Assembly: GCA_027493375.1 (NCBI GenBank)
Contig: JAPVWO010000287.1
Location: 1 to 41,626 of the forward strand
Direction of reading: 5' to 3'
Length of the DNA: 41,626 nucleotides
Origin: Candidatus Multivorans thiocomprendens
Lineage (GTDB): Bacteria; Acidobacteriota; Thermoanaerobaculia; Multivoradales; Multivoraceae
In this document: piece after piece, positions 14,684 to 22,718 of the stretch
How positions within the stretch are numbered: the stretch's first letter is position 1
How the letters are laid out: each line of letters starts with the position of its first letter
Position numbers and translations under genes: made by a program
Notes under the pieces: generated by a model
Told to the model about the DNA's origin: nothing
Seen by the model: only the letters and a program-made list of their open reading frames with translations
Database searches by the model: none

Positions 14684-15010
14684 GTGTGCATCGAGGTCGT
14701 TCAGGAGTGGGAGGGCTTCGTGGTCGCCATCGACGCCGGAACATTCAACGCGCGGCTTCTCGACGTGACCGCCGGGGACCGCTACGACTCCGCGGAGGCG
14801 ACGATTCCGCTGGAGGCGCTCTCCGGCGAAGATCGCGAGCGAATCGAGGAGGGGAGCATCTTCAGATGGGTTATCGGCCATCAGCGGGCCCCGGCCGGGT
14901 CCGGGAGGCGCGTGTCGCGAATCGTCCTCCGTGACCTTCCGATGACGGCCGCGGATGAGCGGGTCGGCCGTCGGTGGGCCCGGGAGATCATGGACAGGTT
15001 CGGTCTGTAA
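14684..15010 (+). CDS. Small conserved protein of unknown function, upstream of the R-M genes
   Basis: The protein has 108 residues. The GTG start is preceded by GGGACGAG at the right spacing. The first 65 residues read as a compact beta barrel (EWEGFVVAID, FNARLLDVTAG, AEATIPLEALS, FRWVIGHQRA), followed by RVSRIVLRDLP and an amphipathic C-terminal helix. I have seen this layout in short uncharacterised bacterial proteins but know of no demonstrated function. It lies 112 bases upstream of the C5 methyltransferase on the same strand, so it may be part of the restriction-modification island, for example as an accessory or control protein; there is no helix-turn-helix to support a C-protein role. 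Confidence 0.7.
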   Translation: MCIEVVQEWEGFVVAIDAGTFNARLLDVTAGDRYDSAEATIPLEALSGEDRERIEEGSIFRWVIGHQRAPAGSGRRVSRIVLRDLPMTAADERVGRRWAREIMDRFGL

Positions 15011-15122
15011 CTCTCGCCGCGTAGCGGGCGGCGACGACGCTGCGTCGCGCCCCGACTTTCCGCCGCCAAAGCGATCACCCCGGCTGGCCAAAGGACCGGA
15101 CAGCGCTGGTAACGTCCGGCGG

Positions 15123-16190
15123 ATGGAACAGAAGCAGCAAACCGGCGTAGTCGTGGATCTCTTCTGCGGCGCCGGCGGACTGAGCCACGGGTTCGTGCGG
15201 GAGGGCTTCAGGGTCCGCGCTGGCTTCGACATGGATCCGGCGTGCCGCCACGCGTTCGAGACGAACAACGACGCCGCGTTCAACGAACGGGACGTCGGCT
15301 CGTTGAAGAAGGCCGATCTGGCCGCCCTTTTCGGCAAGGACGAGCCGACCATCCTGGTCGGGTGCGCGCCTTGCCAGCCGTTCTCGACCAACAATCAGAG
15401 ACGGCCCGATCATCCGGAGTGGCGCCTCATCGAGAGCTTCGGCGTGCTGATCCGCGAGACGACGCCCGACTTCGTCTCAATGGAGAACGTCCCGCGGCTC
15501 AAATCGTTCAAGGGAGGCAAGCTCCTTGCCGAGTTCCGCAGTCTGCTGGAGGACGAACTCGGCTACTCCGTCTGGTGCGCTACGGTGAACTGCGCTTCCT
15601 ACGGCGTCCCGCAAACGAGGCGGCGGCTGGTGCTGCTCGCCTCCAGGGCGGGGCGAATCGAGCTCATTCCGCCAACGCACCAGCCGTCTGGCTTCCGCAC
15701 GGTTCGGGAGACGATCGCCCATCTTCCCCCGCTCGCTGCTGGTGGCCAGAGCCCGGACGACTCGCTTCACTGCGCCAGCCGAATGTCGACGACGAACCTG
15801 GCTCGAGTCAGGGCCTCAAGGCCCGGAGGGACATGGAGGGACTGGGACCACCACCTCGTCGCACCCTGCCACCGCCGATCCTCCGGTCGCCTTTACGACA
15901 ACGTTTACGGTCGCATGATCTGGGACGCTCCCGCACCTACGATCACCACCAAATGCACCGGTTTCGGCAACGGACGCTTCGGCCACCCCGAACAGGATCG
16001 CGCACTGTCGCTGCGCGAAGCCGCTCTGCTGCAGAGTTTCCCCGAGGACTACGAGTTCTTCGCGCCTGAAGAACCGGCACGGCCTCAGGTTGGCGCCCGC
16101 ATGATCGGAAACGCCGTTCCAGTAGCACTGGGGCAGGCGATCGCCGGCAGCGTGGCGAGGACCATCGGCGCCGGAGAAGGCGATGGCTGA
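15123..16190 (+). CDS. DNA (cytosine-5) methyltransferase of a Type II R-M system
   Basis: This is a 355-residue C5-cytosine methyltransferase that would protect host sites by transferring a methyl group from S-adenosylmethionine. Motif I is DLFCGAGGLSHGF (residues 11-23). Motif IV has catalytic Cys84 in APCQPFS, and motif VI has Glu121 in MENVPRL. Motif VIII is PQTRRRLVLLAS, and motifs IX-X are LSLREAALLQSFP and IGNAVPVALG. The variable target-recognition region lies between about 195 and 275. The ATG at 15123 was chosen because it starts eight residues before motif I, although its ribosome site is weak. The gene overlaps the ATPase/endonuclease gene by 8 bases. Third-position GC looks lower than in the flanking housekeeping genes, consistent with horizontal acquisition. 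Confidence 0.9.
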   Translation: MEQKQQTGVVVDLFCGAGGLSHGFVREGFRVRAGFDMDPACRHAFETNNDAAFNERDVGSLKKADLAALFGKDEPTILVGCAPCQPFSTNNQRRPDHPEWRLIESFGVLIRETTPDFVSMENVPRLKSFKGGKLLAEFRSLLEDELGYSVWCATVNCASYGVPQTRRRLVLLASRAGRIELIPPTHQPSGFRTVRETIAHLPPLAAGGQSPDDSLHCASRMSTTNLARVRASRPGGTWRDWDHHLVAPCHRRSSGRLYDNVYGRMIWDAPAPTITTKCTGFGNGRFGHPEQDRALSLREAALLQSFPEDYEFFAPEEPARPQVGARMIGNAVPVALGQAIAGSVARTIGAGEGDG

Positions 16191-18120
16191 GCAGCCTTAC
16201 TCCATGACGATCGATCTCAACGTTCTCAACCACCTTGGGATCAACCTCTACAGCAACAACCCGGCTGTACTGGCCGAGGCCGTGGCGAACGCATGGGATG
16301 CGGATGCCGAGCAGGTCGAGATAGAGATCGACTCCGAGGGCGGCACCATCGTCATCACCGACGACGGTCACGGCATGACGGGCGAGGACATCAACGAGAA
16401 GTTCCTGCGGGTCGGGAGGCGACGGCGCGAGCAGGAACCCAAAACGCCGAAGTTCGGCCGTCCCGTGATGGGCCGCAAGGGGATCGGCAAGCTGTCCCTC
16501 TTCTCGATCGCCGACACGATCGAAGTCCAGTCGGCCCAGAATGGCGAGAGCAGCGGCTTCACGATGTCCTTGACGGAGATCAAGAATGCCATCGAAGACA
16601 AGCCGACGGGCGTCTACCATCCTCCCCCTCTCCCAAGAGACGACGTCAATGTCGAGTCGGGAACCCGGCTTAGGCTTAGCAATCTGCGGAAGCGCTTGAC
16701 CAGTACGGAAAAGAACCTCCGCCGCCGATTGGCTCGGCGGTTCAGCGTGATCGGTCCAGAGCACCATTTCTCCGTCCTCATCAACGGTACGCCCGTTGGC
16801 GCGGACGACCGCGACTACTACTCGAAGCTCCAGTTCGTCTGGAAGTACGGCCAGCGTGGAGAGGAGTGCGCCGACCTCTTCAAGAACGCCCGCAACGTTG
16901 AAACGCGAGCGGTCGAGAGCTTCGTGGGCTGGATCGGTACCGTGGACAAACCGAGCCAGTTGAGCGACTCGGGCGACAGCTTCAACAACATCGTCTTGCT
17001 GGCGAGGGGAAAGCTGATCCAGGAGGACGTCCTCGGCGTCAGCAGTGAGGCCGGCGTCTTCGGCAAGTACATCGTTGGCGAACTTCAGGCCGACGACCTC
17101 GACTTGGACGACCGGGATGACATCGCCACGACGAATCGCCAGGCCGTCGTCGAGGAGGACCCGCGGGTTCAACTGCTGCGGAAGGAGATCGCCTGCGAAC
17201 TCAGCTACATCCGCGAATCGTGGACGAAACAGCGCAACAAGCTGGGCAGCAAGGCCGCGCTTGAGAACCGTGCCGTCAAGGCGTGGTTCGCGGAACTCGG
17301 GAAGGACGACAAGAGGAGAGCCGAGCGGGTCTTCGGCAAGATCAACGAGGTAACGACGGAGGATCCGGAGCAGCGGCGGATGCTGTTCACGTATGGCGTG
17401 TTCGCCTTCGAGCACATGAAGGCGAAGCGGAACCTCGACGCTCTCGAGAGGCTGTCGGGCGAGTCGCTTGTCGAGTTCGGCGAGATCTTCACGAACCAGG
17501 ACGATCTTGAAGCCAGCCTCTACCACCAGATCGTGAAGAGCCGCCTTCTCGTGATCAAGGCACTTCAAAACCACGTGGAAGCCAATGCGCTGGAGAAGGT
17601 GGTCCAGCGCCACGTCTTCAAGTCGCTCTGGTTGCTGGACCCGTCCTGGGAACGGGCGACAGGCACGGAGTACATGGAGAAGTCGGTCGCCAGCGAGTTT
17701 GCCAAGGTCGACAAGCAGCATCAGGGCAAGGCTCTCGGCCGAGTTGACATCAAGTACCGAAAAGCCGCGGGCACCCACGTCATCGTAGAGTTGAAGCGGG
17801 CGAAGGTCCGCACGTCTTCGGAGGAACTGCTTGGCCAAGTCCGAAAGTACCGCTTGGCACTGCGCAAGCTGCTTGAGAGGCGCGGCGAGCAGCACCCTCG
17901 GATCGAGGTCGTGTGCGTGGTGGGCGAGAGCCTGAGGGACTGGTCCGATCCCGACGGCAGGGAGGAATCCACCAGAATGCTCGCCGCCAGAAACGTCCGC
18001 GTCGTCACCTACCTGGAACTGATCGACAACGCCGAACGTGCCTACGCGGCGTTTCTTGAGGAGAACCGGCGAGCCGGTCGGCTCGTGCGCTTGCTGACGG
18101 CGATCGACGCGGACGAGTAG
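16183..18120 (+). CDS. GHKL-ATPase restriction endonuclease, HgiDII/BbrUI-like
   Basis: The protein has 645 residues. The N-terminal half is a GHKL (Hsp90/MutL/MORC type) ATPase: the N box has Glu32, Asn36 and Asp40 in LAEAVANAWDAD, motif G1 is DDGHGM (60-65), and motif G2 is GRKGIGKLSLFSIAD. The C-terminal region has a PD-(D/E)XK nuclease core with Asp522 (GRVDIKY) and Glu536-x-Lys538 (HVIVELKRAK). The size and order match the HgiDII/BbrUI family, Type II restriction enzymes encoded beside C5 methyltransferases; Iyer, Abhiman and Aravind described such MutL/MORC-like ATPases in restriction systems. The ATG lies inside the methyltransferase stop region (ATGGCTGA overlap), so the two are translationally coupled and form one restriction-modification unit. 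The recognition site is unknown. Confidence 0.85.
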   Translation: MAEQPYSMTIDLNVLNHLGINLYSNNPAVLAEAVANAWDADAEQVEIEIDSEGGTIVITDDGHGMTGEDINEKFLRVGRRRREQEPKTPKFGRPVMGRKGIGKLSLFSIADTIEVQSAQNGESSGFTMSLTEIKNAIEDKPTGVYHPPPLPRDDVNVESGTRLRLSNLRKRLTSTEKNLRRRLARRFSVIGPEHHFSVLINGTPVGADDRDYYSKLQFVWKYGQRGEECADLFKNARNVETRAVESFVGWIGTVDKPSQLSDSGDSFNNIVLLARGKLIQEDVLGVSSEAGVFGKYIVGELQADDLDLDDRDDIATTNRQAVVEEDPRVQLLRKEIACELSYIRESWTKQRNKLGSKAALENRAVKAWFAELGKDDKRRAERVFGKINEVTTEDPEQRRMLFTYGVFAFEHMKAKRNLDALERLSGESLVEFGEIFTNQDDLEASLYHQIVKSRLLVIKALQNHVEANALEKVVQRHVFKSLWLLDPSWERATGTEYMEKSVASEFAKVDKQHQGKALGRVDIKYRKAAGTHVIVELKRAKVRTSSEELLGQVRKYRLALRKLLERRGEQHPRIEVVCVVGESLRDWSDPDGREESTRMLAARNVRVVTYLELIDNAERAYAAFLEENRRAGRLVRLLTAIDADE

Positions 18121-18207: not shown

Positions 18208-18579
18208 TCAATCCTGCCCGGCGCTGGGCGCCGGCTCGTTGCTGATCGTGGGTTCCCTGGCGAGCTTTTGCCGCCACTCCGCGAGCTGGTCTTCGTCCGT
18301 GCCCAGGGCCAGAGCCGCGGCCTGGTCGATGATCCGGCGCGCCTCGCATTCCTCCGCCTGACGCATCGGCAGCAACTCCATTCGGCAGGCTTCGGTAAAG
18401 GCGGCTGCCAGGGCTTCCCAGGCTGAGTTGTCGAGCTTTGGGATGCGAATGGACTCCCAGTGGGCGACGGACCACTTTGGATAGTCCAGTGTCTTTGCCC
18501 GTCGGTTCAGGAGCATGAGCCGCGCTGGCGTCGAATTCAGCCACGCTGCGAGAGCCTTACTCCGGCACGACCATTGCAA
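18208..18579 (-). pseudogene. Out-of-frame C-terminal end of the Type ISP enzyme (target-recognition tail)
   Basis: These 123 codons directly follow the GTCG repeat in the -1 frame relative to the upstream open frame. They encode LQWSCRSKALAAWLNSTP and on through YPKWSVAHWESIRIPKL, the 'LNSTP ... lpvP' pattern that ends target-recognition regions of Type ISP and Type IIG enzymes, then a helical tail ending in SAGQD and a stop. No start codon with a ribosome site precedes it. It can only be made as the end of the Type ISP protein when the repeat number is 16 or 13 (or differs from these by three). This is the sequence that shows the upstream stop at 18537 is not the natural end of the protein. 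Confidence 0.85.
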
Positions 18580-21500
18580 GGTCGGTCGGTCGGTCGGTCG
18601 GTCGGTCGGTCGGTCGGTCGGTCGGTCGGTCGGTCGGTCGGCGCCACCGGTATCCAGCCGAATCCGAACGTCGATTCGCCCGATCGCAGAGCGGTAAGCC
18701 GGCCGTTGGTTGTCCTGAATCGCACGGCAACAAGAAGCGTCGATGCTTGGTCTCTGACGTTCCTCCAGAGGTGGGCGCGCCTGCCGCCCGGCTTGGCCCA
18801 CTGTTCTGGCTCGGCGGACATCGTCTGGCGCAGCTCGGCCGAAACGGAAGCGAAGACCCGGAGTGCGCTGGGGTCCTTGGGTGGTGTCGTTCCGTCGCAC
18901 TTGCGCCAGGAGTCCTGAGCAGCTCGTCCTGTGGGGCCGATGCCGTGTCGCTCACCGAGAAGCTCGAGTTCGGGCGAGTCCTCGATTCGCCTGACGGCGT
19001 CCGCCAACGATCCGTCGTACCACTGCACGGGCGTCCAGTCGCCGGCTTGCATGCGTTCCGCCGGCCAGAATGTGCGGCTGCCCCAGGCCTCGTTGCCGGC
19101 GTCAATGGCGTCCGCGGCGTCAATGGCCTCCTCTGCCGTCGCCGGCATGAGCCGGAGCGAAACGAACTCGGTCGTCGGCGCGGCCCGCGTGGTCCCGTCC
19201 CGACGTCGGCAGATGAGCAGCGACTCGTGAATGCCGGTGTTCTCCGAGAAGTTCACCCGCTTCGGGTCGTGCGAGGTGACGACGCGCTCGACGTTGAAGC
19301 GCTCGGCGAGGAAGCGCCGCTCCGGCTCGCCGGAGGCGCCGATACAAGCGGTCGCCGGGAGTACCTTGGCCACCGTGCCCCGGTCGCTCAGTACCTGGTC
19401 GGCCAGCGGTGTGAAGAAGGTCCGAATACTGTTGGTGTTGATGACCTCGCCGGCCTCCTGGTCGCGCTTCAGCAACTCGTCCCGGATCCGCAGTTCGCGT
19501 TCCTGCATCCGCTTCCTGGCCTCCCCCGTGAACTTCTCGCCGCGCTTGTCGTTGGCCGTGAACGGCGGGTTCATGATCACCAGGTCGACGTCTTTGGGCT
19601 GGAAGTCGCTTCCGATGCCGTCGGCTTCCCATTGGGCGCCGAGGGTGTCCGTTCCCTGGAGCCTTGAGGCCATGGAGAAGAGCGTGGGCGCGGTGCCGTC
19701 GTCGCGCGATCGGAGGATCTCCAGCGCCCCCGCCTTGACCGTCCCGTCGTCCTGGGGCCCGTGCCGCATCGTGTGCAGGTTCATCCGCGAGTAGTTCACC
19801 GACGGCGCGCCCAGGGTGAGGTTGCAGGCCGCGAGCTGGACGCCGTGGCGGTTGATGTCGAGGCCGCACAGCACGTCCTCGACCAGCGTCCGGTGCAGGC
19901 CCTCGTCGTTCCCTTCGCCCAGTGAGCCGCCCTCGCGCATTCGGGCCTTGATCGTCCGCAGCGCCGCCATCAGCAACGTGCCGGTGCCGCACGCCGGGTC
20001 GATGACGCGCAGCCGTGCCACCGCTTCCGGGTCGGACCAGTCGACGAACGACTCGTCGAGCGCGAGGCGGGCCAGCATCAGCGCCGAGACGTTGTTCGTG
20101 TAGAAGGCGCCGTCGCTCTTCGCCGAGCCGAGGATCCGGTGGTAGAGCGGGCCGGCATGGTCGTAGCCGAGGTCGTTCAGGCTGTCGGCGAGACTGTCGG
20201 CGCATTCCGACAGACCGCGCAGCGCGGTCCGGATGCCCTCGCTGTTCGGAAGCCCCTTGAGCGCCGCCAGCGCCGGCTCGAACACGGGCGCGTAGTCCAG
20301 TTCGAGGATCGTGCTCCACGAGGCCAGGAGAACGCTCGACGGATCGCCCGTGGCGCCGACCCGGCCGAGACCGGGCAGCATCTTCATCTCGGGCACGTCG
20401 CGCAGCCGGCGGTGCATGAGGCAGGCGTTGCAGAGCAGCAGGGCGGCGACCGTGCGGACTGCTTTCCGGGCCTGCTCGTTGTCCGCGTGCAGGTCCAGGG
20501 CGTCGGCCAGCGGCTCTTCGACCTCCTCGTCCCGGAAGATTTCGGCCGCCCGCTGGACCGCCCAGGCGATCTCGTCGGCGACCAGCGTGCCTGGCTGGCC
20601 GAGCCCGGACGCCGCCGCGACGTGGGCGAAGATGCCCTCGTCCGCAGGTTTGAGCTCAAGGCCGTCGAAGAGGTCGGGTTGATCGCCACCGGGGTCGCCC
20701 GGAGCGTCTCCTTCCATTGGCGTCGTTTCGTGAACCTGCACGAAGCGAGCGATGTCCTCGTGCAGCCGCTCGTCATGCGCCTGCAGCGCCCGTAGCACCT
20801 TGCCCAGTGTGTGGTAGCCCTCGGGGCTGTTCCGCAGGGCGTCCGCCACGTCCATGCCGGGCCGAACGATCACCGGGACCACGATGTAGCCGAACTTCTT
20901 GTCCTCGGCCCGTCGCATCACGCGGCCGACGGCCTGCACGACGTCGACCTGGCTGTCGCGCGGGTCGAGGAAGGCCACGGCGTTGAGGCTCGGCACGTCG
21001 ACGCCCTCGGTGAAGAGCTTCACGTTGCAAATGACGCGAAGCGTGCCGTCCTTGCCGGCTTCGCTGAGTTCCCGGAGCGCGAGGTTGCGTTCCAGGGCGC
21101 TGGCCGAGGCGTCGAGATGCCGGGCCTCGACGGACCAGGCTCGCTCCTCGCCGCGGAGGCGCCTGGTCGTCGCCCGCTTGACCTGAGAGTCCATCAACGC
21201 GGCGGTGAACCACTTCGACCGCTTGATGGTGTTCGCGTAGGCCATCGTGCGGGGGAGGCGGTCCGGACGCTCGATCCCCTTGCCTTCGCTCAACCCGTTG
21301 ATCGCCAGGGAGACTCCGAGCACGCGGGTGATGTCGTTCAGCGTCGGCTGGTTCTTCCCGTCGCCCTCGGCGAGGCCCTGCAGTCGGGTGCGCAGACCGG
21401 GCGTGACCTTGGACTGGTCGACACCGAGCACGATGACCCGGTAGTCCGAGAGCTTGCCGTCGTCCACGGCCGTCTTGAAGCGCAGCCGGTGGAACTGAGG

Positions 21501-22718
21501 GCCGTAAGTCGCTTCGTCGCTCATGTCGACGACTTCGATCTCGCGCCTCGCCAGCTTTCTCTTCGATCTCCGAGTGTAGATGCGCGGCGTCGCCGTCATG
21601 TACAGGCGTTTGCGCGTGAGCAACCGCTCCGCGTCGTGGACGAGTTGGAAGTCCACCTTCTCGCGCGGGCGGTTCAACACGCCGGTTGTGCGGTGCGCTT
21701 CGTCGGCGATGGTCAGGGCGAAGGGCGCGGTGCCGTGCGCGTTCTGTGCCTCGACGACCCTCGTGAGGGACTGGTAGGTGCAGAAGACGACCTTCGTGCG
21801 CTGGGCCGCGTTGAGCCTGGCCGCGATCTGCTCCGGATTCGAGACGACCGGGCACTCGAGTTCCGAGATGCCGATGTCCTCCTGCTCGTTCCGGCCGCCG
21901 GCGTACGGGTCGGAACAGACGACCAGGGAATCGAGGTGCCGAGTGGTGTGGGTCAGCCATTCGCGGCGGGCCTGGGAGACCAGCGCGATCGTCGGCGCCA
22001 GGAAGAGCATCGCGTCGTCGTTGGGCACGAAGCGCTCGGCGATGCGAAGCGCGGTGAACGTCTTGCCGGTGCCACAGGCCATGACGAGCCGCCCGCGGTC
22101 GTGGTGTTCCAGCCCCCGCAGGGTGTCCTCGATCGCCTCCCGTTGCAGCCGCCAGGGTTCCCGGACCGGGCGCTTGATGTCCCTGGCGATGATCCGCCGG
22201 TCCCGGTAGTTGCGGAAGTCGATTCGGCGGACGCCCGTGCCCCGGATGATGTTCTCGGCCGTTCGACCCCAACGGGAGGTGGTGACGATCCACCGCAGTC
22301 CGAAGACTCTCCCCCGTGTGCCGTCCGTGCCCGCCAGGAAGCTCTGTACGTCCGCCTTCGTCACGCGGTGGTGAGAGGCGTAGCACTTGCACTGAATCGC
22401 GATCCAGGTCCCGTCGCGGTGAAGTGCCACGAGATCCACGCCGATGTCCTGGCCAGAAAGGCCAGTCAAGCGCTTGCGTTCCGGCCACTGCGCCCAGTGC
22501 CAGACGCCTTCAAGCTCAAACTCGGGCTCGTGCCGAGCGAGCTGCGCGAAGAGGTTTTCGAACCACTGACCCTTCTCGGCTTCGGTGCGGCTGGTGTTGC
22601 GAATCCGTCGAAGCAGTTCGCTGGCTGTCAGATCGCCCCAGTCGAGATCCCGGTCTGGAGGCGGCGCGCCCAGATCGATTGCGGTCTGGACCGGGAGATC
22701 GTCGATGGGAGTGTTCAT
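18537..22718 (-). CDS. Type ISP single-chain restriction-modification enzyme, currently frameshifted at a tetranucleotide repeat
   Basis: Type ISP enzymes (LlaGI, LlaBIII) are single polypeptides that methylate adenine and translocate on DNA to cut it. Domains in order: an Mrr-like PD-(D/E)XK nuclease (Asp95 in GVDLVAL, Gln109-Cys-Lys111); an SF2 helicase (Walker A MACGTGKT 213-220, DEAH 339-342, YMTATPRIY, and TEGVDVPSLNAVAFLDPRDS with VQAVGRVMRR); a helical coupler (about 640-860); an N6-adenine methyltransferase (DPACGTG from 907, NPPF 1050-1053); and the start of the target-recognition region. At residues 1360-1380 the frame enters (TDRP)5, encoded by 15 GTCG units, and ends 13 residues later. 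With one unit more or two fewer, it would continue to 18208 (about 1504 residues, near the usual family length). The ATG at 22718 overlaps the divergent gene's 5' region. Confidence 0.9.
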   Translation of the reverse strand: MNTPIDDLPVQTAIDLGAPPPDRDLDWGDLTASELLRRIRNTSRTEAEKGQWFENLFAQLARHEPEFELEGVWHWAQWPERKRLTGLSGQDIGVDLVALHRDGTWIAIQCKCYASHHRVTKADVQSFLAGTDGTRGRVFGLRWIVTTSRWGRTAENIIRGTGVRRIDFRNYRDRRIIARDIKRPVREPWRLQREAIEDTLRGLEHHDRGRLVMACGTGKTFTALRIAERFVPNDDAMLFLAPTIALVSQARREWLTHTTRHLDSLVVCSDPYAGGRNEQEDIGISELECPVVSNPEQIAARLNAAQRTKVVFCTYQSLTRVVEAQNAHGTAPFALTIADEAHRTTGVLNRPREKVDFQLVHDAERLLTRKRLYMTATPRIYTRRSKRKLARREIEVVDMSDEATYGPQFHRLRFKTAVDDGKLSDYRVIVLGVDQSKVTPGLRTRLQGLAEGDGKNQPTLNDITRVLGVSLAINGLSEGKGIERPDRLPRTMAYANTIKRSKWFTAALMDSQVKRATTRRLRGEERAWSVEARHLDASASALERNLALRELSEAGKDGTLRVICNVKLFTEGVDVPSLNAVAFLDPRDSQVDVVQAVGRVMRRAEDKKFGYIVVPVIVRPGMDVADALRNSPEGYHTLGKVLRALQAHDERLHEDIARFVQVHETTPMEGDAPGDPGGDQPDLFDGLELKPADEGIFAHVAAASGLGQPGTLVADEIAWAVQRAAEIFRDEEVEEPLADALDLHADNEQARKAVRTVAALLLCNACLMHRRLRDVPEMKMLPGLGRVGATGDPSSVLLASWSTILELDYAPVFEPALAALKGLPNSEGIRTALRGLSECADSLADSLNDLGYDHAGPLYHRILGSAKSDGAFYTNNVSALMLARLALDESFVDWSDPEAVARLRVIDPACGTGTLLMAALRTIKARMREGGSLGEGNDEGLHRTLVEDVLCGLDINRHGVQLAACNLTLGAPSVNYSRMNLHTMRHGPQDDGTVKAGALEILRSRDDGTAPTLFSMASRLQGTDTLGAQWEADGIGSDFQPKDVDLVIMNPPFTANDKRGEKFTGEARKRMQERELRIRDELLKRDQEAGEVINTNSIRTFFTPLADQVLSDRGTVAKVLPATACIGASGEPERRFLAERFNVERVVTSHDPKRVNFSENTGIHESLLICRRRDGTTRAAPTTEFVSLRLMPATAEEAIDAADAIDAGNEAWGSRTFWPAERMQAGDWTPVQWYDGSLADAVRRIEDSPELELLGERHGIGPTGRAAQDSWRKCDGTTPPKDPSALRVFASVSAELRQTMSAEPEQWAKPGGRRAHLWRNVRDQASTLLVAVRFRTTNGRLTALRSGESTFGFGWIPVAPTDRPTDRPTDRPTDRPTDRPCNGRAGVRLSQRG
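18580..18641. repeat. Tetranucleotide simple-sequence repeat, 15 units of GTCG
   Basis: Bases 18581-18640 are 15 perfect GTCG units, extended by one matching base on each side (62 bases in all) with no interruption. On the coding (minus) strand it reads as CGAC units and gives the 4-residue repeat TDRP, because three 4-base units equal four codons. The tract lies inside the Type ISP target-recognition region. The three frames lead to a stop at 18557 (14 units), a stop at 18537 (15 units, present state) or the conserved C-terminus ending at 18208 (16 or 13 units). Long, perfect repeats of this kind mutate by slipped-strand mispairing. Confidence 0.97.

Follow-up and report, generated by a model that had tools for sequence, protein, structure and literature searches.

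A tetranucleotide repeat as a probable ON/OFF switch in a Type ISP-like restriction-modification gene of an uncultured bacterial lineage

We propose that a tandem array of CGAC units near the 3´ end of a restriction-modification (R-M) gene acts as a slipped-strand ON/OFF switch, i.e. as a contingency locus, and we hold this reading to be very probable. The gene is predicted to encode a single-chain, ATP-dependent, Type ISP-like enzyme, and the switch would work through the C-terminal part of its target-recognition domain (TRD). The array was found in a stretch of 41,626 nucleotides, which is called the window below.

Tandem Repeats Finder detects a single perfect period-4 array at 18580-18641 (62 bp, 15.5 copies, 100% matches), which is by a wide margin the top-scoring tandem repeat of the window. 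On the minus strand it reads as CGAC x15. One hundred dinucleotide shuffles of the window gave an expected number of 0.00 for runs of at least five tandem CGAC units. The present open reading frame (ORF) starts with ATG at 22718 and stops at 18537 after 1393 amino acids; beyond the array, a different frame is open to 18208. When only the unit count is altered in silico, 10, 13, 16, 19 and 22 units yield products of 1496, 1500, 1504, 1508 and 1512 amino acids, respectively, all with the common end ...EPAPSAGQD. Counts of 12, 15 and 18 lead to the present stop at 18537, and counts of 11, 14 and 17 to an earlier one at 18557. Between 11 and 23 units, every count except 13, 16, 19 and 22 results in an early stop. 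A long perfect simple repeat inside an ORF, with a unit that is not a multiple of three, is a feature of contingency genes, and (CGAC)15 is such a repeat. Repeat finding, ORFs and in-silico counts reproduce all coordinates and lengths of the initial annotation, which had placed 15 perfect units in a nuclease-helicase-N6-methyltransferase gene, noted an intact tail (18579-18208) in the other frame, and predicted a single frame after gain of one unit or loss of two and a stop at 18557 with fourteen. The count of 15 is to be read as a consensus count only, because it comes from a draft assembly (339 contigs), in which the window is a single contig of 41.6 kb, and not from individual reads. Features of the region are as follows.

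18208..22718, minus strand: Type ISP-like R-M gene across two frames, 1504 residues if 16 units are present (ORFs, in-silico counts, full-length relatives)
22215..22622, minus strand: Mrr-family nuclease domain, residues about 33-168 (Pfam Mrr_cat_2, E 1.9e-22; match to LlaBIII, 4xqk, from residue 31)
20748..22160, minus strand: superfamily 2 (SF2) helicase-like motor, residues about 187-657 (ResIII, E 1.2e-21; Helicase_C; LlaBIII match)
19149..20168, minus strand: N6-adenine methyltransferase domain, residues about 851-1190 (N6_Mtase, E 2.7e-9; Eco57I)
18642..19148, minus strand: part of the TRD before the array, residues 1191-1359 (identities to homologues; fold of the L024 homologue)
18580..18641, minus strand: (CGAC)15 tandem array, putative phase switch, PTDR linker when read (Tandem Repeats Finder, in-silico counts, shuffles)
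18557..18559, minus strand: stop codon at 14 or 17 units, presumed OFF (ORF and in-silico counts)
18537..18539, minus strand: stop codon at 15 units, 1393 amino acids, presumed OFF (ORF and in-silico counts)
18208..18579, minus strand: conserved C-terminal TRD tail, out of frame at 15 units (homologue identity, dN/dS, helices of the L024 model)
14955-16190, plus strand: C5-cytosine DNA methylase
16183-18120, plus strand: GHKL-ATPase gene, matching PADLOC models of Type II restriction endonucleases

The last two genes overlap each other, and the pair converges on the Type ISP-like gene, which places two R-M systems back to back.

Architecture of the interrupted gene

The gene shares its domain order with LlaBIII and LlaGI. 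An N-terminal Mrr-family nuclease and an SF2 helicase-like motor are followed by a gamma-class N6A methyltransferase and a C-terminal TRD, all in one chain, with the whole TRD available only at 3k+1 units. Both arrangements are features of Type ISP enzymes. The motor contains a Walker A sequence (ACGTGKT) and a DEAH box; in the methyltransferase, the motifs DPACGTGT and NPPF are present in the translation. The domain matches themselves extend over residues 68-168 for the nuclease and 190-603 for the motor, and begin at about residue 865 for the methyltransferase. Among solved structures, LlaBIII (4xqk), a Type ISP enzyme, gives the best match, with E 8.7e-89 over residues 31-656 only. A profile search with the methyltransferase/TRD half yielded no significant solved relative by sequence, LlaBIII and LlaGI included, and the best PADLOC model for the gene is REase_MTase_IIG (PDLC03597).

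Further information on this half comes from an AlphaFold model of its counterpart in a homologue, L024, in which the TRD part mostly reaches pLDDT 70-94. With a mean pLDDT of 58 for the half as a whole, the model aligns to BpuSI, CamA, M.BseCI, BrxX/PglX and TRDs of HsdS, and the fold matches to 4xqk and 5ffj rank below those to Type IIG enzymes and stand-alone methyltransferases. Judged by sequence and model together, the gene appears to combine a motor half of LlaBIII type with a methyltransferase and recognition half that resembles Type IIG enzymes. Because the sequence match to LlaBIII and LlaGI extends over residues 31-656 only, "Type ISP-like" is the safer label, and Type ISP is firmer as a description of the architecture than of the whole chain. 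The original designation as a Type ISP enzyme thus stands for the domain order and the motor half, but the methyltransferase/TRD half is of a gamma class resembling Type IIG enzymes, CamA and BseCI; it models nearer to BpuSI, CamA and BseCI, and in this the gene differs from LlaBIII and LlaGI. Two other early proposals are well founded: Pfam and LlaBIII matches combined with the frame arithmetic support a switchable single-chain nuclease-helicase-N6A methyltransferase, and both the alignment of homologues and the L024 model place the array inside the target-recognition region.

Homologues and the proposed working of the switch

Close homologues over most of the chain occur in seven other genomes of the genus, with 73-84% identity. 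In six same-genus homologues without the array (79-83% identity), the tail is in frame and the array site is occupied by a loop of 6 residues (e.g. ILEERS or VEDEHT). In the L024 model this loop connects a strand (678-682) with a TRD helix (686-696), and the tail corresponds to predicted helices 686-790. The part of the TRD before the array is the most divergent between relatives, with 53-57% identity to the six homologues, whereas their N-terminal and methyltransferase parts are mostly 80-94% identical to the window gene. Compared with the homologue L004, N-terminal parts are 89-94% identical and the pre-array TRD 55%. Going by sequence, differences in specificity should also be located in this variable part. 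The tail itself has 63-74% amino acid identity to eight same-genus homologues, with dN of 0.20-0.28 versus dS of 0.96-1.75 in each comparison (dN/dS about 0.2), and is under purifying selection by these comparisons.

One homologue, in genome G012, is 84% identical to the window gene and carries the same array, 91 bp long, which corresponds to 22 units when counted as in the window. Its tail follows the array in frame (PVAPTDR...PTLQWSCRSKALALWLNSTPARLMLLNRRAKTLDYPKW); this ON gene was joined from two contigs, as C319 ends within the array and C99 begins 10 bp upstream. The presence of 15 units in the OFF gene of the window and 22 in the ON gene of G012 agrees with the frame arithmetic. The number of units is therefore not fixed among relatives, and homology of the tail in full-length homologues is clear from the six in which the same tail is in frame. 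The break within the 91-bp array (end of L021, start of L044) is odd, as the name of the contig points to k=141. A population with arrays of mixed length could have caused it, and we do not use the break as proof of such a mixture since its cause cannot be told.

Since most homologues have no repeat at all, the family as such can do without switching. Viral contigs gave no match to the exact array flank. Among plasmids, 724 records match, none over more than 80% of the query and all below 60% identity; the best matches listed cover the motor half only, and some of them are annotated as Type ISP. The genomes with homologues come, to judge by their sample names, presumably from sponges, and the lineage is probably sponge-associated.

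We suggest that replication slippage would add or remove CGAC units and so change the frame in living cells. With 3k+1 units, the array would be read as a (PTDR)n linker in the TRD loop between beta strand and helix, where variable length would presumably be tolerated, and a complete enzyme would result (ON). With other counts, such as the one assembled, the last ~124 residues, which form the helical part of the TRD, would be lost (OFF), and the 15-unit protein would keep nuclease, motor and methyltransferase. The TRD of LlaGI consists of core, jaw and guide; helices stacked on the central sheet of the core are well conserved, and TRD and methyltransferase together clamp the target (PMC4872093). 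By analogy, no target recognition would be expected once the helical part is lost, so that methylation and cleavage would stop together and the 15-unit protein should be inactive in both marking and cutting. The likely benefit would be a population mixed for defence against phages and foreign DNA. As the initial annotation proposed, sub-populations with 13 or 16 units may exist in this species, and the switch might act as a phasevarion, in which case methylation and expression of a set of genes would change with it.

It had also been inferred that joint switching avoids self-cutting. This would hold in the direction from ON to OFF only, which would be safe because both activities go together. 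In the opposite direction, however, newly made enzyme would meet an unmethylated chromosome. Type ISP cleavage needs two converging enzymes, and this need may give time for methylation after the gene has been turned ON.

Three other explanations of the locus have to be considered. The 1393-residue form with its partial TRD might methylate or cut a different, looser motif, in which case the array would switch specificity. The array does sit inside the recognition domain, and there is a precedent in JHP1272 of Helicobacter pylori, where a frameshift in the C-terminal recognition region changes the motif from GGWTAA to GGWCNA (PMC3936762). In H. pylori, however, the TRD is complete in either case and the frameshift decides whether a further domain follows it, whereas the tail lost here belongs to the only TRD, of which it forms the conserved helical part, and is present in all intact aligned homologues; we therefore regard a switch of specificity as quite improbable. 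It is similarly doubtful, to the point of being very unlikely, that 15 is an error of sequencing or consensus and the true count is 16 (or 13), with the gene always ON. The draft state of the assembly, from which 15 was obtained as a consensus count, leaves some room for this, but ordinary reads span the 62-bp array, and a counting error would leave unexplained the siting of arrays in R-M genes as well as the differing lengths and frames in relatives.

That an accidental expansion of the array has turned the gene into a pseudogene, with no switching at all, would fit its being out of frame as assembled, as well as the degraded copies found in relatives (G013:C118 and G012:C299). Against such a fixed loss, the gene extends over 4.5 kb without any other frame lesion, its tail is under purifying selection, the array is also present in one in-frame homologue, and long arrays are concentrated in R-M genes across several species of the genus (see below). 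We give this explanation hardly any credit, and the ON/OFF switch remains our preferred reading.

Relation to known phase-variable systems

Repeat-switched R-M systems of Type I, III and IIG are established. Type III mod genes (modA and others) and phasevarions resemble the window gene in that a DNA methyltransferase is turned ON or OFF by frame through a simple repeat within the coding sequence. In Type III systems, however, mod and res subunits are separate chains and the repeat is located near the 5´ end, whereas the window gene has the nuclease, the motor, the methyltransferase and the TRD on a single polypeptide, with its repeat near the 3´ end, in the TRD. Type IIG enzymes, which work without an ATP-driven motor, provide repeat-switched single-chain systems in Campylobacter jejuni and H. 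pylori, and the tract of JHP1272 is likewise in the recognition region. They differ from the present case in that their tracts are homopolymers and not tetranucleotides, and in that the C-terminal tract of JHP1272 changes specificity. Hpy99XIV, the Type IIG enzyme of H. pylori that serves as the precedent above, changes its motif when its second homopolymer tract changes (PMC3936762).

The nearest Type ISP case that we found is HP0667-HP0669 of H. pylori, a Type ISP gene that is frameshifted like the window gene and whose repaired version methylates GGANNAG, but its frameshifts are, according to the authors, not due to sequence repeats (PMC3936762). In the literature searched, LlaBIII and LlaGI are not described as repeat-switched, no report on R-M phase variation in sponge symbionts was found, and, for Type ISP genes, the open-access literature yielded no earlier case of switching by a repeat. 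That R-M genes can be phase-variable is well known; what is apparently new here, within the open-access literature, is the repeat switch in a Type ISP-like gene.

Repeat arrays elsewhere in the genus

We searched 149 genomes of the class for (CGAC)10+, and the genus for (CGAC)6, (AG)15+ and (GGAC)6+. Only three of the 149 genomes contain (CGAC)10+, all from this genus and all in Type ISP-like genes: the window gene, its G012 homologue, and a member of a second Type ISP family ("ISP-B") in G019. The G012 member of ISP-B matches LlaBIII over its full length (1064 bits). The G019 gene, from a genome assembled as a single contig of 4.63 Mb, encodes 1732 amino acids in frame; its methyltransferase contains (AG)23 and its TRD (CGAC)47. 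The G016 copy, 94% identical to it, contains (AG)37 and is not in frame. Relatives thus differ both in unit number and in reading state (15 versus 22 CGAC units; AG23 ON versus AG37 OFF), another feature of contingency genes, although these states are read from assemblies, one genome per species, in which array lengths can be wrong. Other arrays are (AG)17, in frame, in G012:C194; (AG)21, out of frame, in G013:C60; (GGAC)8 at the TRD position, out of frame, in G001:C23; and, in a member of the window gene's own family (G001:C143), (AG)27 where the methyltransferase ends, in frame.

Nine of ten (AG)15+ arrays and both (GGAC)6+ arrays of the genus lie in R-M genes, figures that have to be read with the fact that CGAC, AG and GGAC were picked for this census after being seen in such genes. 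The ten AG arrays divide into six in Type ISP-like genes (one of them the degraded G013:C118) and one each in a Type III mod, a Type I hsdS, a Type IIG and a Calx-beta gene. The fair sample, consisting of AG arrays outside the R-M loci examined before the census, has three of four in R-M genes. As controls, three CCAG and three CA arrays of the genus were found in or near other genes and, as far as examined, none in a recognisable R-M gene. G13 tracts were common in the search, and several of those listed are at contig ends. The arrays outside Type ISP-like genes are these.

L065:4711-4760: (AG)25 in a Type III mod gene, close to its 5´ end, G005
L069:4949-5236: (GGAC)14.5 and (AG)22, about 187 bp apart in one Type IIG gene, G001
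L068:5559-5596: (AG)19 where two half-hsdS reading frames meet, G013
L066:5915-5966: (AG)26 where a Calx-beta repeat protein of 2046 residues begins, G018

The two ends of the L069 gene are in different frames. The Calx-beta protein is, by its sequence, a possible phase-variable surface protein.

A wider reading, to which we give about an even chance, is that this genus of uncultured Acidobacteriota runs multi-locus combinatorial phase variation over two Type ISP families as well as Type I hsdS, Type IIG and Type III mod genes. Long AG, CGAC and GGAC arrays would have arisen repeatedly in loops of recognition domains or methyltransferases, some genes would have two independent switches, and a symbiont population would comprise many defence states. 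This multi-locus pattern in an uncultured lineage is the more interesting part, compared with the single switch. So far, the known cases of R-M phase variation come mainly from pathogens of animals and humans, and most concern Types I, III and IIG; the host lineage lies outside the usual pathogens, and in its motor-driven single chain, recognition, marking, translocation and cutting can only change state together. Like switches in the same and in other defence genes of relatives suggest a gamble on which defences are ON. If the symbionts of sponge-type communities do differ in defence state within a population, this would explain how dense populations survive phages that sweep through clones.

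Several minor observations concern the sister family. A second copy of the TRD segment ICVPG..KPFS..I.D..PDL....GQCFPRW comes after the first, in another frame (L043:7054-7400 and L105, minus strand); it is conserved in the sister Type ISP family of both G019 and G001. As to its use as an alternative TRD, codon-position differences favour neither frame. In the long-contig assembly of G016, two contigs, C10 (L052:1-300) and C12 (L109), both end in the ISP-B gene, one of them beside the (AG)37 array, and structural variation at this locus is possible. In contig C7 of the same genome (L054:7033-7788), a displaced fragment with a match to the C-terminal part of ISP-B lies upstream of the Type ISP gene and contains a G16 tract.
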